Below are positions 1,123 through 6,062 of a stretch of 6,062 bases of DNA, piece by piece. The DNA is taken from contig JAFTRD010000165.1 of assembly GCA_017462425.1 (NCBI GenBank), positions 1 through 6,062 on the forward strand. The letters run 5' to 3'. Both the position numbers and the translations under genes were made by a program. The DNA comes from Clostridia bacterium (GTDB lineage: Bacteria > Bacillota_A > Clostridia > Christensenellales > Borkfalkiaceae). The notes beneath the pieces were generated by a model. It was given only the letters and a program-made list of their open reading frames with translations, made no database searches and was not told the DNA's origin. Each line of letters begins with the position of its first letter. Position 1 is the stretch's first letter.

Positions 1123-2118
1123 TTAATCCTTTTTAATATTTTTCCTGCCACGTACCCTTTTAATGGTCTTGTTGCTTTCAATTTTATTGGAGGCGGTGGT
1201 GCGGAAAATAACGATGCCAACGACGGCGGTAACCACTGCGGTCGCCGCTACGATGACCCAGAACCCCCACTCTGTTCCCTCAAACGGTACGGGGACGTTC
1301 ATACCCCATAAACTTGCGATGAGGGTAGGCACGCTGATGATGAGCGTAACGATGGTTAAGAGCTTCATGACGACGTTCATGTTATTAGAAATGACCGAGG
1401 CAAAGGCGTCCATGGTATCCTTTAAGATATTGCGGTAAATGTTACACATTTCGATTGCCTGCGTATTTTCAATGATAACGTCTTCGTACAGATCCTGATA
1501 TTCCTCTATATCGGTAACCGGTTTGAGTTTTTTCACCCGACCGTACACACGCATATTGGAAGAAAGCGAAGTGGAGAAATAAACCAAGGAATTTTCCAGT
1601 TCAAGCAGCTGAATGAGCTCTTTATTCTTCATGGAACGGTGCAATTCCGCCTGCACACGTAGGGATTTTTTATCGATTTGTCTAAGGTAGGAGAGGAATT
1701 TTTTAGCGTTGCCCATCATAAAGTTGAGCAAAAAGAATACGGGCTTGGACGTATCCGCCTTGATACGGTTGGAGATGAAGTCGCCCAAAATAGCGTTGCC
1801 GTGCAGAGAAACGGTGACGATACATTTCTCGTTGAAAATGATTGCGATAGGCAAGGTTTCGTAAGAGTCGCCCTCCTCCGTATCACGCATGATGGGGGTA
1901 TCCACGAGGAACATGCTGTTGCCTTCGTCTATTTCGACACGGGCAGTTTCCTCTTCGTCGAGCGCTGCCTTTATCATTTCTTCGGGAATACCCGTTAAGG
2001 CGACGATATCCTCTACCTCGTCGTCCGTCGGGTTGATCATATCGACCCAACACTTTTCACGAAAACCTTGAAGTTGCGCCATGTACAGCTTTTCGTCCGT
2101 TTGAAAGAATTTTACCAT
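1123..2118 (-). CDS. corA: CorA-family divalent cation (Mg2+/Co2+) transporter
   Basis: This 331-residue protein has the CorA plan. A soluble acidic N-terminal domain (about 1-240) ends in a long helical stretch, followed by two C-terminal membrane helices (about 253-271 and 286-306). The signature GMN motif is at 272-274 (LWGMNVPVPF) right after helix one, followed by a short loop containing EGTEW. The C-terminus is strongly basic and would be cytoplasmic. CorA forms a pentameric inner-membrane channel for Mg2+, and for Co2+/Ni2+ in some members. The start MVKFFQTDEK is chosen because GGAG (2131-2128) lies nine bases upstream. An in-frame ATG at 2181 would start inside the terminator hairpin and lacks an SD. 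A promoter, a leader ORF and a terminator/antiterminator lie upstream, suggesting transcription attenuation. The zinc-ribbon gene follows after 12 bases. Confidence 0.95.
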   Translation of the reverse strand: MVKFFQTDEKLYMAQLQGFREKCWVDMINPTDDEVEDIVALTGIPEEMIKAALDEEETARVEIDEGNSMFLVDTPIMRDTEEGDSYETLPIAIIFNEKCIVTVSLHGNAILGDFISNRIKADTSKPVFFLLNFMMGNAKKFLSYLRQIDKKSLRVQAELHRSMKNKELIQLLELENSLVYFSTSLSSNMRVYGRVKKLKPVTDIEEYQDLYEDVIIENTQAIEMCNIYRNILKDTMDAFASVISNNMNVVMKLLTIVTLIISVPTLIASLWGMNVPVPFEGTEWGFWVIVAATAVVTAVVGIVIFRTTASNKIESNKTIKRVRGRKNIKKD

Positions 2119-2162
2119 ACTCGCACTCTCCTTTGAATAGAATTTACCGTATTTCGGGAAAT

Positions 2163-2193
2163 AAAAAACGCACGGAAACAACTTCCGTGCGTT
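2163..2193 (-). terminator. Intrinsic terminator ahead of corA (attenuator)
   Basis: On the minus strand AACGCACGGAA (2193-2183) and TTCCGTGCGTT (2177-2167) form a perfect 11-bp stem with a five-base GTTGT loop, and the T-run reaches 2163. It ends about 45 bases before the corA ATG and downstream of a promoter and a small ORF, so it would stop leader transcripts before corA. It would also end any transcript from the upstream M1 peptidase gene. Its 5' arm is complementary to the end of the small leader ORF. Confidence 0.88.
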
Positions 2194-2243
2194 AAAAATA
2201 CCAAAACAAGTTTGGAGTATTTTTATAATTATTCGCGCGGAAG
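2182..2243 (-). promoter_or_regulatory. Candidate antiterminator enclosing an AT-rich hairpin
   Basis: CTTCCGCGCG (2243-2234), which covers the last codons of the leader ORF, can pair with CGCACGGAAG (2191-2182) at nine of ten positions; the one mismatch is C2237 with A2188. This pairing would consume the 5' arm of the terminator at 2163-2193. Between the two arms lies another hairpin: 2224-2218 plus 2215-2211 pairs with 2205-2194, giving 12 bp with a two-base bulge and a CTTGT loop, which would bring the arms close together. The two conformations exclude each other. The fold was found by eye; relative stabilities are not computed. Confidence 0.6.
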
Positions 2244-2288
2244 AATTTTATTTTCGTTCTTGCATGGATTGTCGGGAACGGCGTCCAT
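2229..2288 (-). CDS. Candidate 19-residue leader peptide of corA
   Basis: The frame is M-D-A-V-P-D-N-P-C-K-N-E-N-K-I-L-P-R-E followed by TAA. It has an excellent SD, GAGGAG (2300-2295), six bases before the ATG, and begins about 23 bases after the predicted transcription start. It carries no run of one amino acid, so classical amino-acid attenuation is unlikely. The N-terminus is Asp/Pro-rich, a composition known to destabilise translating ribosomes at low Mg2+ in the enterobacterial MgtL leader. Its last codons overlap the antiterminator arm. A ribosome completing the ORF would mask that arm, and early drop-off would free it. It might instead be a free-standing small protein. Translation is not proven. 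Confidence 0.6.
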   Translation of the reverse strand: MDAVPDNPCKNENKILPRE

Positions 2289-2317
2289 TTTTGACTCCTC
2301 GAAAATTTAGTATTTTC

Positions 2318-2346
2318 ATTATAAACCCAAAACCAAACTTTGGCAA
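2318..2346 (-). promoter_or_regulatory. Sigma-A-type promoter for the corA leader
   Basis: Minus strand: -35 TTGCCA (2346-2341), five of six consensus bases; a 17-base spacer; and a perfect -10 TATAAT (2323-2318). The predicted start is near 2311. It lies just after the stop codon of the M1 peptidase gene, giving corA and the zinc-ribbon gene their own transcript with a leader of about 190 nt. Confidence 0.85.
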
Positions 2347-2381: not shown

Positions 2382-3830
2382 TTAAATAACCGCCGTACCC
2401 GACAAGAAGCTGTCAAACAAGCCTTCCACGTCCACGCCCGTCTTTTTGAAACAAGAAATCATGTCCTCAGGCGTGGCGATTTGATGGGTATACTCCGCAT
2501 AATAATTTTTCAGCCCGGCAAAAAACCGATTGTCGCCTATCCCCTCACGCAGAGCGTCAAACAGGAGCAAACCCTTGTTATAGGTCAGATTGACGTACTC
2601 GTACTCGCTGACGTACGTGCTTAAATTGCGGTTCATAGAGGTATTGCTTTCACCGAAAATCTGGTTATAGATACTGTAATACGCTTTATATTTGGTGAGC
2701 GCTGTATGAACGATACTCTCCCGTGTCAACCCGTACGATTCGTGCGTTTCGTAAAATAACAGGGTGGAATATTCACTCAAGCCCTCGTCCATCCAGGCGT
2801 ATTCCTGTTGATTACTGCCCACGGCGGCGTACCACCACTGGTGCGCCGTTTCGTGTACGACGGTGTACAGATAATTTTCACGCTCTAATGCGTCGGAGAG
2901 AAGCACCATGCCGGGATATTCCATGCCGCCGTAACAAAAGCCCGTCTGCACCAAGGCGTAGCTGTCGTAAACATATTCGCCGAACGCTTCGGAGAAATAC
3001 GAAAAAGCGTCACACGCCGTTTGCAAGGTGGACTGCGCCTCGGCGTCGTCATAATAATAATACGTAACGGGAATTCCGTTCACTTCCTTAGAGCATACCT
3101 CAAAACGGTTGCTGAGCGCAAAGGCAAAGTCCCTAGCCGAGGATAGGACGTAACGGTAGGTTACCTTTCCCTCTTTTTGCGAGGTTTTACCCAAAGCGGA
3201 CGCTGCTACCGTGTACCCCGCCGGTACGGTGAGATATACGTCGTAATCGGCGCAGGCGCTGTAAAAGGGGTCGCCGTCCGAATAATATACGCACTCGTAA
3301 TAGCCGTTGGGCTGGTCGTACACGCAGAGAACGGGATAAAAGTTGCCTACGTTTATCACGTTTTCGGTGATACCCGTGCGATGATTGATTTTTGCGAGGG
3401 TAACGGTGAATTTGATATTGATTTCCGCCCGTTCCTCGGGGAAGAGGGATTGCGTTAACGTGACGGAGAGAATATTCTCGTCCTCGCCGCAAACCTCCCA
3501 GCTTTCAGCGCCCGTAACCTCGGTGATGGAGATGTTGCCGTAGCTTTCCCCGTCGTAATAGGCAACGGAGCGGTAGACGGAAGAAACGGGCTCGTAGGTA
3601 GCCCCTTCACGGAAGGCGTTGGGGAAAAGATTGAATTTTAGAACGGAAATTTCGTTTTCCGTGGTATTGACGTAATTAAAATTCATATCCGCCGTGAGCG
3701 TACCCGTATCGGGCGCATATTCGGCGGCAATGGTATACTTGCAGAGCGATTGCTTGGGCGTACACCCAACGAACGTTACCGCCGTACAGAGAATAAAGAC
3801 AGAGAGAAATAAACAAAACAGCTTTTTCAT
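2382..3830 (-). CDS. M1-family (aminopeptidase-type) metallopeptidase lipoprotein
   Basis: This 482-residue protein has a short basic N-terminus, a hydrophobic stretch and a lipobox ending FVGC, so C23 is the likely lipidated residue and the mature protein would be anchored outside the membrane. The middle (about 30-250) resembles the beta-rich N-terminal domain of M1 peptidases. The substrate-binding GxMEN equivalent is GGMEYPG (301-307). The zinc site is HETAH (326-330) followed after 18 residues by E349 in WMDEGLSEYS, the HEXXH-x18-E pattern of clan MA/M1. Y417 in LTYNKG is at the place of the usual catalytic tyrosine. All key residues seem present. It probably trims peptides at the cell surface; specificity cannot be read. 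SD GGGAGG (3847-3842) is 11 bases from the ATG, rather far, and lies in a hairpin arm. No clear terminator follows before the corA promoter. Confidence 0.93.
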   Translation of the reverse strand: MKKLFCLFLSVFILCTAVTFVGCTPKQSLCKYTIAAEYAPDTGTLTADMNFNYVNTTENEISVLKFNLFPNAFREGATYEPVSSVYRSVAYYDGESYGNISITEVTGAESWEVCGEDENILSVTLTQSLFPEERAEINIKFTVTLAKINHRTGITENVINVGNFYPVLCVYDQPNGYYECVYYSDGDPFYSACADYDVYLTVPAGYTVAASALGKTSQKEGKVTYRYVLSSARDFAFALSNRFEVCSKEVNGIPVTYYYYDDAEAQSTLQTACDAFSYFSEAFGEYVYDSYALVQTGFCYGGMEYPGMVLLSDALERENYLYTVVHETAHQWWYAAVGSNQQEYAWMDEGLSEYSTLLFYETHESYGLTRESIVHTALTKYKAYYSIYNQIFGESNTSMNRNLSTYVSEYEYVNLTYNKGLLLFDALREGIGDNRFFAGLKNYYAEYTHQIATPEDMISCFKKTGVDVEGLFDSFLSGTAVI

Positions 3831-5276: not shown

Positions 5277-5612
5277 TTATTCCCAAGGGAGCGGTTCGCC
5301 GCCGAGGATATGAATGTGCAGGTGATGCACGGTTTGACCGGCGTTTTCACCCTGATTTACCACCAAGCGGAATCCGTCCGCCACCCCAAGCTCTTTTTTG
5401 AGCGCAGGAATTTTTTGCAGCGCGCGCTTGACGATTAAGGCACGGCTTTCGTCCATATCCTCCAAAAGCGCAAAATGCTCTTTGGGAATACACAGGCAGT
5501 GCACCTTGGCTCTGGGCGCAATGTCCTTGATGACGATAAGCTCGTCATCCTCGTACAATTTTGCCGAGGGGATTTGTCCCGCAATGATTTTACAGAATAC
5601 GCAGTTATCCAT
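5277..5612 (-). CDS. HIT-family (HinT-type) nucleotide-binding protein
   Basis: This 111-residue cytoplasmic protein fits the compact HinT branch, near the usual length of 110-120. The histidine triad is HLHIHIL (H97, H99, H101), preceded by the family's NQGENAGQTVHH segment (N86, G92-Q93). The N-terminus has DNCVFCKIIAGQIPS, with C4 and C7 as a likely structural zinc pair as in many Gram-positive members. HinT proteins hydrolyse nucleoside phosphoramidates such as AMP-lysine; the physiological role is often unclear. The ATG overlaps the end of mtaB by eight bases, and AGGAGA (5626-5621), eight bases upstream, lies within the mtaB coding sequence, so the two are likely translationally coupled. 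A terminator-like hairpin (5185-5222) follows about 55 bases after the stop. Confidence 0.95.
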   Translation of the reverse strand: MDNCVFCKIIAGQIPSAKLYEDDELIVIKDIAPRAKVHCLCIPKEHFALLEDMDESRALIVKRALQKIPALKKELGVADGFRLVVNQGENAGQTVHHLHIHILGGEPLPWE

Positions 5613-6062
5613 TATAAATTTCTCCTATACATAAATCCGAAGATTTTTTATTTATCAATTTTATTTTACGTTTATGCGCCACTTTACCAAAAACGGCGAC
5701 ACGTATATAATTTTCCGTGTACCCGAAGGTCTGTCCGTCCTTATATTCCTCGGGTACGAAGGAAAAAATTTCGCCCAAAAATTTATCCGTATACTCGCTG
5801 CGGCATTTTTCCGCCAACGACATTAAACGCAGTTTTCGTTCCTCTTTGATAAACGGAATCAGCTGCGGTAGCTTTGCCGCCGGCGTACCCTCCCGAGGAG
5901 AGTAAACGAAACAATGTATCTGGGCAAAGCCTACCTCCCTGACGAGATTCAGACTGTCGATAAAATCTTCCTCCGTTTCGCCCGGGAATCCCACGATGAT
6001 ATCGGTAGTGATTGCCGCACGAGGGAAATAGCGGTAGATGAGCTTACATTTTTCGATATACT
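5605..6062 (-). CDS. mtaB: tRNA t6A37 methylthiotransferase MtaB, C-terminal part (partial)
   Basis: The frame is open to the right edge of the window, so only about 151 C-terminal residues are seen; the upstream part with the radical-SAM CxxxCxxC motif is outside. Visible landmarks are AAITTDIIVGFPGET (the GTG at 5994 is the internal Val of IVGFPGE, not a start), then EVGFAQIHCFVYSPREGTPAA, an ER-rich linker, FLGEIFSFVPEE and FGYTENYIRVAV. This order is typical of the MiaB/MtaB family. The YSPREGTPAA and GYTENYI segments favour MtaB over MiaB or RimO. MtaB adds a methylthio group to N6-threonylcarbamoyladenosine at position 37 of tRNAs decoding ANN codons, using two Fe-S clusters and S-adenosylmethionine. 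The C-terminal TRAM-like tail looks short. It overlaps the HIT gene by eight bases. Confidence 0.93.
   Translation of the reverse strand, partial: YIEKCKLIYRYFPRAAITTDIIVGFPGETEEDFIDSLNLVREVGFAQIHCFVYSPREGTPAAKLPQLIPFIKEERKLRLMSLAEKCRSEYTDKFLGEIFSFVPEEYKDGQTFGYTENYIRVAVFGKVAHKRKIKLINKKSSDLCIGEIYNG

Follow-up and report, generated by a model that had tools for sequence, protein, structure and literature searches.

The Mg2+ transporter gene corA in the DNA analysed here, a stretch of 6,062 nt from a Clostridia bacterium (hereafter, the window), is preceded by a leader-peptide attenuator which, judged by sequence comparison, is real and widely conserved, occurring in many gut Clostridia. It is most likely the Bacillota counterpart of the enteric CorL and MgtL leaders, with an intrinsic terminator. 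We regard it as probable that this leader controls corA in cis as an attenuator of the CorL/MgtL kind wired to the intrinsic terminator, with ribosomes dropping off or stalling in low Mg2+. The comparative support comes from a small upstream ORF (uORF), its N-terminal motif, its codon choice, the terminator, a covarying antiterminator and the distance of the latter from the uORF start.

The corA leader and its conservation among relatives

An initial annotation had described a promoter, a Shine-Dalgarno (SD) sequence, a 19-codon ORF, a terminator and corA with its own SD, and each was found where it had been placed, on the minus strand. The sigma-70-type promoter (TTGCCA-N17-TATAAT, 2318..2346) matches the consensus at 11 of 12 positions and ranks first among the window's 13 promoter-like sites (7.9 expected). 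It is followed by the SD GAGGAG (2295..2300) and by the 19-codon uORF (2229..2288, ATG at 2288), which reads MDAVPDNPCKNENKILPRE up to its stop codon and whose conserved N-terminal part (codons 1-9, MDAVPDNPC, 2262..2288) contains Asp2 and Pro5. The antiterminator segment CUUCCGCGCG (2234..2243) is centred about 50 nt past the uORF ATG. Between it and the terminator, the centroid fold of the window leader predicts an A+U-rich hairpin (2194..2224). The intrinsic terminator hairpin itself occupies 2167..2193 and its U-tract 2160..2166 (together AACGCACGGAAGTTGTTTCCGTGCGTT, 2193-2160), and its 5' arm CGCACGGAAG (2191-2182) is the partner of the antiterminator segment. Finally, corA (1123..2118, ATG at 2118), preceded by the SD AGGAG (2128..2132), encodes a CorA-type Mg2+ transporter (Pfam PF01544, E 2.3e-54), which is 83-84% identical to the proteins of three uncultured Clostridia (L001, L002 and L008) and 64-65% identical to that of Candidatus Gallimonas caecicola (Bacillota, Clostridia).

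As for the neighbouring DNA, an M1-type peptidase gene (2382-3830) ends just before the corA leader. Frames upstream of corA end similarly, with F.SF..G..(I/V)I, in the family-set loci L071, L097, L100 and L101, so the order of the peptidase gene and corA may be conserved. Farther downstream, beyond corA and a zinc-ribbon gene, lies the 5' portion of a 23S rRNA gene (Rfam RF02541, 1-479, minus strand), with a promoter-like site before it at 746-774; neither a 16S match nor a tRNA was found upstream of it within the window, and 16S and 23S may thus be unlinked in this genome. A start-truncated ORF at 5605-5994 (minus) presumably resembles a radical-SAM methylthiotransferase.

Our comparison was built around a family set of 67 corA loci, namely the window, 14 loci from a first search for relatives and 52 from the genomes of a close relative's family; membership is assumed for L003, L005, L007, L009, L011 and L015, which are outside the 251 family genomes drawn. 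Among the 29 loci of the first search, L018 and L024-L029 were left unscored since the match starts inside the gene or the upstream DNA is incomplete, and for L002 no more than 125 nt of upstream DNA is available. L022, L023, L049 and L050, with no such uORF, and L020, whose only frame is at -262, belong to none of the scored sets. The order set consists of 61 examined loci outside the family set, from 139 genomes (140 places) with corA, and the Lachnospirales sample of 48 scored loci (64 with corA, 50 fetched). For a class-wide sample, 47 loci of 48 were examined; for a Listeria/Lactobacillales set, 48 places in 36 genomes gave 30 fetched and 19 shown loci, lower-identity paralogs being mostly omitted. 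Related genomes share ancestry, and locus counts are therefore not counts of independent events.

A strict test was applied for a uORF with an SD, an ATG or GTG start, 8-40 codons, an end before corA, and M[D/E] followed by proline or a second acidic residue; L129 and L207, with short upstream DNA, were left out of it. Such a uORF, SD included, precedes corA in 58/67 family-set loci against 0.5 expected from dinucleotide shuffles, in 42/61 other loci of the order (0.6 expected) and in 16/48 loci of the Lachnospirales sample (1.0 expected). Control genes of the same family yielded it in 1/29 cases for mgtE (29 of 30 loci being usable for uORFs) and in 0/30 for HIT. With a looser pattern that dispenses with the SD, and with L063 and L075 entered by hand in the uORF table, a uORF is found in 66/67 family-set loci, L097 being the only one that lacks it. 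For L056, one of two candidates was picked by hand, and where order or Lachnospirales loci had several candidates, the one nearest to corA was used. Class-wide raw counts, which come without a shuffle expectation, are 9/47 strict and 17/47 loose, and the motif uORF is absent before many corA genes (32/48 in the Lachnospirales sample; class-wide, 38/47 by the strict and 30/47 by the loose pattern).

Related motifs were also met farther afield. In Listeria grayi and its close relatives (L219-L223, L226, L229-L231), 9/9 of the corA leaders studied carry EPDP, EPEP or DPGP, at a slightly later position within the uORF. No comparable ATG/GTG uORF was found in ten less related Lactobacillales corA loci, in one of which (L243) a TTG frame at -255 reads MPEPDSP. 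A candidate uORF of L019, from the Chloroflexota, begins MEPGCASS. No CorA relatives were found on viral contigs.

Within the family set, the start of the uORF is conserved. Codon 2 is Asp in 59 and Glu in 7 of the 66 uORFs, and Pro occupies one of codons 3-5 in 60/66, so that the early acid and proline typical of CorL and MgtL are present in these as well as in the window. At codons 6-9 polar residues (N, S, R, C, Y, H) prevail; conservation fades afterwards, and the peptides diverge widely past the shared motif. A promoter with at least 10/12 matches precedes the uORF in 60/66 loci, the best -35 element being TTGCCA in 37 and TTGCAA in 17, and the -10 element TATAAT in 60. Three of the six uORFs without an early Pro (L081, L096 and L099) also have no SD; there, only 6-10 nt separate the end of a TATAAT from the uORF ATG, a second TATAAT is present slightly further upstream, and these uORFs may therefore be leaderless or nearly so.

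A covarying antiterminator and the proposed switch

A terminator-like hairpin separates the uORF from corA in 62/66 family-set loci, against 1.0 expected from shuffles. Among the uORF loci of the order the count is 22/42 (0.8 expected) and among those of the Lachnospirales 1/16 (0.1 expected); no terminator was found in the remaining 4 family-set, 20/42 order and 15/16 Lachnospirales loci. The pairing of 2243-2234 with 2191-2182 at 9/10 positions, as it had been annotated, is exact, and when the window leader is shuffled, 0/100 shuffles give the terminator 5' arm a duplex as good as its best one in the real leader. Weaker as single features are the number of terminator-like sites in the window (13 vs 8.5 expected) and the fold of the whole window leader, which is only mildly better than shuffles. 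With a z of only -1.69, the whole-leader minimum free energy was set aside as uninformative.

The position of the antiterminator segment tracks the start of the uORF. Across the 62 family-set loci, the sequence that best complements the terminator 5' arm has its centre 44-53 nt past the uORF ATG (middle half), compared with a middle half of -32 to +5.5 when the uORF stop is the reference, and a tie to the stop codon is ruled out. The centre falls within +35..+60 of the ATG in 49/62 loci, against 26% with shuffled arms, and outside it in 13/62; with slightly longer arms, the best match falls elsewhere in L087 and L090. In uORFs of 10-13 codons the segment is centred past the stop codon in 15/16 cases, and in longer uORFs, that of the window included, it lies inside the ORF. 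Consequently, the initial annotation was right for the window in having the final codons of the ORF pair with the terminator arm, but this is not a general rule.

The segments covary with their terminator arms. Summed over the 62 family-set loci, the segments paired with their own terminator arms reach -710 kcal/mol vs -579 (sd 16) for permuted partners, and 0/20,000 permutations were as good. The same holds when the set is restricted to 47 distinct arms (-542 vs -429, sd 14; 0/20,000) and for 22 order loci outside the family set, L156 being omitted, whose terminator sequences are mostly different (-267 vs -194, sd 10; 0/20,000) and whose segment lies at +35..+60 in 16/22. Compensation extends to all three strands (segment, 5' arm and 3' arm): 5 loci have C-G-C at a place where U-A-U prevails, 7 have U-A-U instead of the prevailing C-G-C, and 12 have A-U-A instead of the prevailing G-C-G. 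Conservation of the ORF and of the pairing in relatives, a check proposed with the initial annotation, is thus borne out by the strict uORF counts and by these permutations. What the sequences contain is what a ribosome-mediated attenuator consists of, that is, an SD-preceded leader ORF before an intrinsic terminator and a covarying, mutually exclusive antiterminator, and the comparison supports the earlier reading of the leader in these terms. For loci without a terminator we considered sequestering of the corA SD instead; folding gave no consistent direction of SD accessibility and no consistent translational switch (mean accessibility for a ribosome placed at codon 5/at the stop: 0.45/0.36 in the Lachnospirales, 0.41/0.44 in the order, 0.44/0.49 in the family set). 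Hairpins over the corA SD are visible by eye in L016 and L021.

Folding was also carried out with a ribosome footprint masked. Before the 3' arm is made, the mean antiterminator probability over 62 loci is 0.75 with no ribosome, 0.81 with a ribosome at codon 5 and 0.76 at codon 8, vs 0.10 once codon 14 is reached and 0.16 with the ribosome at the stop; the same series for the window runs 1.0, 1.0, 1.0, 0 and 0. Such values suggest that a ribosome which is lost or stalls early would turn corA on and further translation would turn it off. When the full transcript is considered at equilibrium, the terminator prevails in the mean whatever the ribosome state (0.72-0.92), single loci such as L100 without a ribosome being exceptions, and the switch must therefore be kinetic, decided during transcription.

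Keeping these results in mind, we propose the following scenario. The ribosome would begin the uORF while RNA polymerase is still within the leader. If the acidic-proline start is read through, the ribosome would by about codon 14 cover the segment some 50 nt downstream of the ATG; with the segment covered as the terminator 5' arm emerges, the terminator would form and corA would be off. Drop-off or stalling in the first ~9 codons, which low Mg2+ would favour via intrinsic ribosome destabilization, would instead leave the segment free to pair with the 5' arm, so that the terminator would come too late and corA would be made. In 10/49 loci the uORF continues until 20-54 nt past the segment centre, and a ribosome at its stop would leave the segment unmasked; there, a passing or following ribosome would need to mask it. 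In the earlier proposal, early stalling or drop-off switches corA on; conservation of the first ~9 codons favours such an early event over a late stall. From the sequence, the identity of the gene and enteric precedent we infer that the uORF is translated, that Mg2+ is the signal and that drop-off prevails over stalling; read-through of the terminator and the direction of control would be the expected outcomes of the scenario.

Codon choice and competing explanations

The least expected result is a constraint that appears to act at the level of codons (AGU and CGA). In codons 2-10 of the 62 distinct family-set sequences, Ser is AGT in 46/66 cases, compared with 6% in long ORFs of the same loci, Arg is CGA in 28/36 (long ORFs 10%), and Pro is CCA in 40/58 (8%). 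The 41 order sequences have AGT in 43/59 (long ORFs 6%), CGA in 21/34 (8%) and, for Pro, CCT in 22/36 (16%), and the 17 Lachnospirales sequences have AGT in 17/26 (11%), CGA in 3/10 (5%) and CCT in 14/25 (27%); all these counts omit L156, whose uORF is identical to that of L155, and L103, which is the same locus as L016. AGT is nearly confined to the reading frame (46, 43 and 17 in frame vs 5, 2 and 0 out of frame in the family, order and Lachnospirales sets), a point in favour of codons over an RNA motif. The frame argument fails for CGA (28, 21 and 3 in frame; 12, 25 and 6 out of frame). No such bias is seen at the beginning of 166 further ORFs from the family loci (AGT 14/85, CGA 5/77, CCA 5/32), and this rules out a simple 5' codon ramp for AGT, CGA and, in the family set, CCA; these control genes were found mechanically and, with only 2 CCT codons per set, are silent on CCT.

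The window uORF itself has neither AGT nor CGA in codons 2-10. It combines Asp2 with Pro5 (CCC)-Asp6 and has CCA at codon 8, where L008 has CGA; L001 has its CGA at codon 9. Across the family set, CCA is used in 0/16 cases before an acidic residue and in 43/44 otherwise (43/46 with L016 and L021 included). The weak codon and the second acid thus behave as if they were alternatives, a pattern that relatedness may inflate.

Codon-level conservation gives some room to a different sensor within the same attenuator anatomy, in which the early motif would be an arrest peptide or a slow-codon sensor for a signal other than Mg2+, such as tRNA charging, EF-P or ABC-F supply. The Ser, Arg and Pro codon preferences of the family set, all above those of gene starts, and a conservation that reaches codon ~9 speak for it. 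However, besides the codon-2 acid no one amino acid recurs in all leaders, 4/62, 8/41 and 5/17 distinct leaders (family, order, Lachnospirales) have neither AGT nor CGA, the controlled gene is a Mg2+ transporter, and the acidic-proline start fits MgtL and CorL. Overall, we consider such a sensor rather improbable. An amino-acid attenuator of the trp type was discarded, the peptide lists, inspected by eye, containing no run of codons for one amino acid.

Within our preferred reading, that of a leader responding to Mg2+, the codons may have a part of their own. AGU is decoded by G-U wobble and CGA by inosine-A pairing, and both are weak forms of decoding. It is tempting to speculate, quite tentatively, that the acidic-proline start and weakly decoded codons (AGU, CGA, CCU/CCA) form a codon-and-peptide sensor in which codon-anticodon stability reads Mg2+. 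It might be a single sensor, either ancient or evolved more than once, that serves corA in two or more phyla, Rho-coupled in enterics and intrinsic-terminator-coupled in Bacillota. Different orders of Clostridia retain the codons in question, and E. coli corL has one of them (AGU). In any case, AGU/CGA conservation constitutes an unexplained rule that a peptide-only destabilization model would not predict.

A direct Mg2+-binding riboswitch with an incidental ORF appears very improbable. Control of this type is at home in the family, where M-box riboswitches were found before mgtE in 7/20 loci (Rfam scan with limited upstream DNA), a result that also served as a positive control. Against it, the conserved part of the corA leader is in-frame coding sequence that shows D/E exchange and comes with an SD, and a scan of the window and 19 other sources with corA leaders for known Rfam families gave no M-box and no other riboswitch above the gathering score, the only match being to rRNA in the window. 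As regards gene content, corA is present in 61/251 genomes of the close relative's family. Among 99 listed family genomes, 13 have CorA only, 77 MgtE only, 2 both and 7 neither, the two transporters being nearly mutually exclusive between genomes. The leader thereby provides a corA regulator in genomes that are mostly without MgtE and its M-box.

Last, the ordinary terminator of an upstream gene combined with a chance small ORF can practically be dismissed: terminator-like hairpins are common in the window (see above) and the peptidase gene does end upstream, but a promoter lies between that gene and the terminator, and the comparative data contradict such an origin, the uORF, the pairing and its position being conserved far beyond chance.

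Comparison with known systems

In the literature searched, which covers neither most subscription papers nor any preprints, we found no description of a leader peptide for corA in Bacillota, nor of a rule at the codon level for leaders of this type. This agrees with the earlier statement, which knew of no attenuator of this kind for corA in Bacillota, but a corA leader ORF as such, corL, is known, as PMC11552253 describes. In E. coli and Salmonella, according to the same paper, corA is Mg2+-responsive and translation of corL represses it through Rho; corL has fewer prolines and acidic residues than mgtL, and its N-terminus is reported to be conserved (PMC11552253). The E. coli ORF ysgD, which we take to be corL from its place before corA and its TTG start codon, reads M-D-T-P-S-R-Y-W with AGT for Ser. 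Like the Bacillota leaders, corL is thus a short uORF before corA, and its M-D-T-P-S(AGT)-R is within the Bacillota pattern. The difference is in the output, Rho and a structured leader in one case, an intrinsic terminator combined with a short antiterminator segment in the other.

The mgtL leader is a second enteric parallel. As PMC11282234 sets out, acidic and proline residues near its start cause ribosomes to drop off mgtL when Mg2+ is low; translation of mgtL represses its transporter gene, and early drop-off turns it on. E. coli MgtL reads M-E-P-D-P-T-P and holds a CGA. The acidic-proline N-terminus is common to mgtL and the Bacillota leaders, and the EPDP, EPEP and DPGP of the Listeria grayi group resemble MgtL. 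In contrast, mgtA encodes a P-type ATPase, its control is Rho-dependent and MgtL has several prolines, whereas the Bacillota uORFs mostly have one early Pro and a marked codon choice. As far as the sources at hand go, Mg2+ control via ribosome destabilization has been worked out in E. coli and Salmonella, and similar ORFs have been suggested in other Proteobacteria.

Two further systems resemble the leader in part. In the mgtCBRU operon of Salmonella, the short uORF mgtQ has early Asp and Glu that lower its own translation and switch alternative hairpins (PMC8092293). A short uORF with early acids is shared with the corA leader studied here, but mgtQ acts on mgtB translation within the operon, not on corA transcription. 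The corA motif is a riboswitch candidate before corA, proposed as a metal riboswitch, with 325 representatives, all gammaproteobacterial or metagenomic (PMC6429828). It shares with the Bacillota leader its position before corA, and differs in range and in its proposed riboswitch nature.

In attenuators of the trp type, the position of the ribosome selects between an antiterminator and an intrinsic terminator. The corA leader differs from these in having no regulatory codon run, in deciding at the first codons and in keeping its antiterminator segment at a roughly constant distance from the start codon. Overall, a corA leader ORF is already known in enterics, and the Bacillota version with its intrinsic terminator is most likely a variant of it. 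With more than 100 natural Bacillota variants, this version represents a ready mutational series in which the peptide, the codons and the switch can be compared separately.
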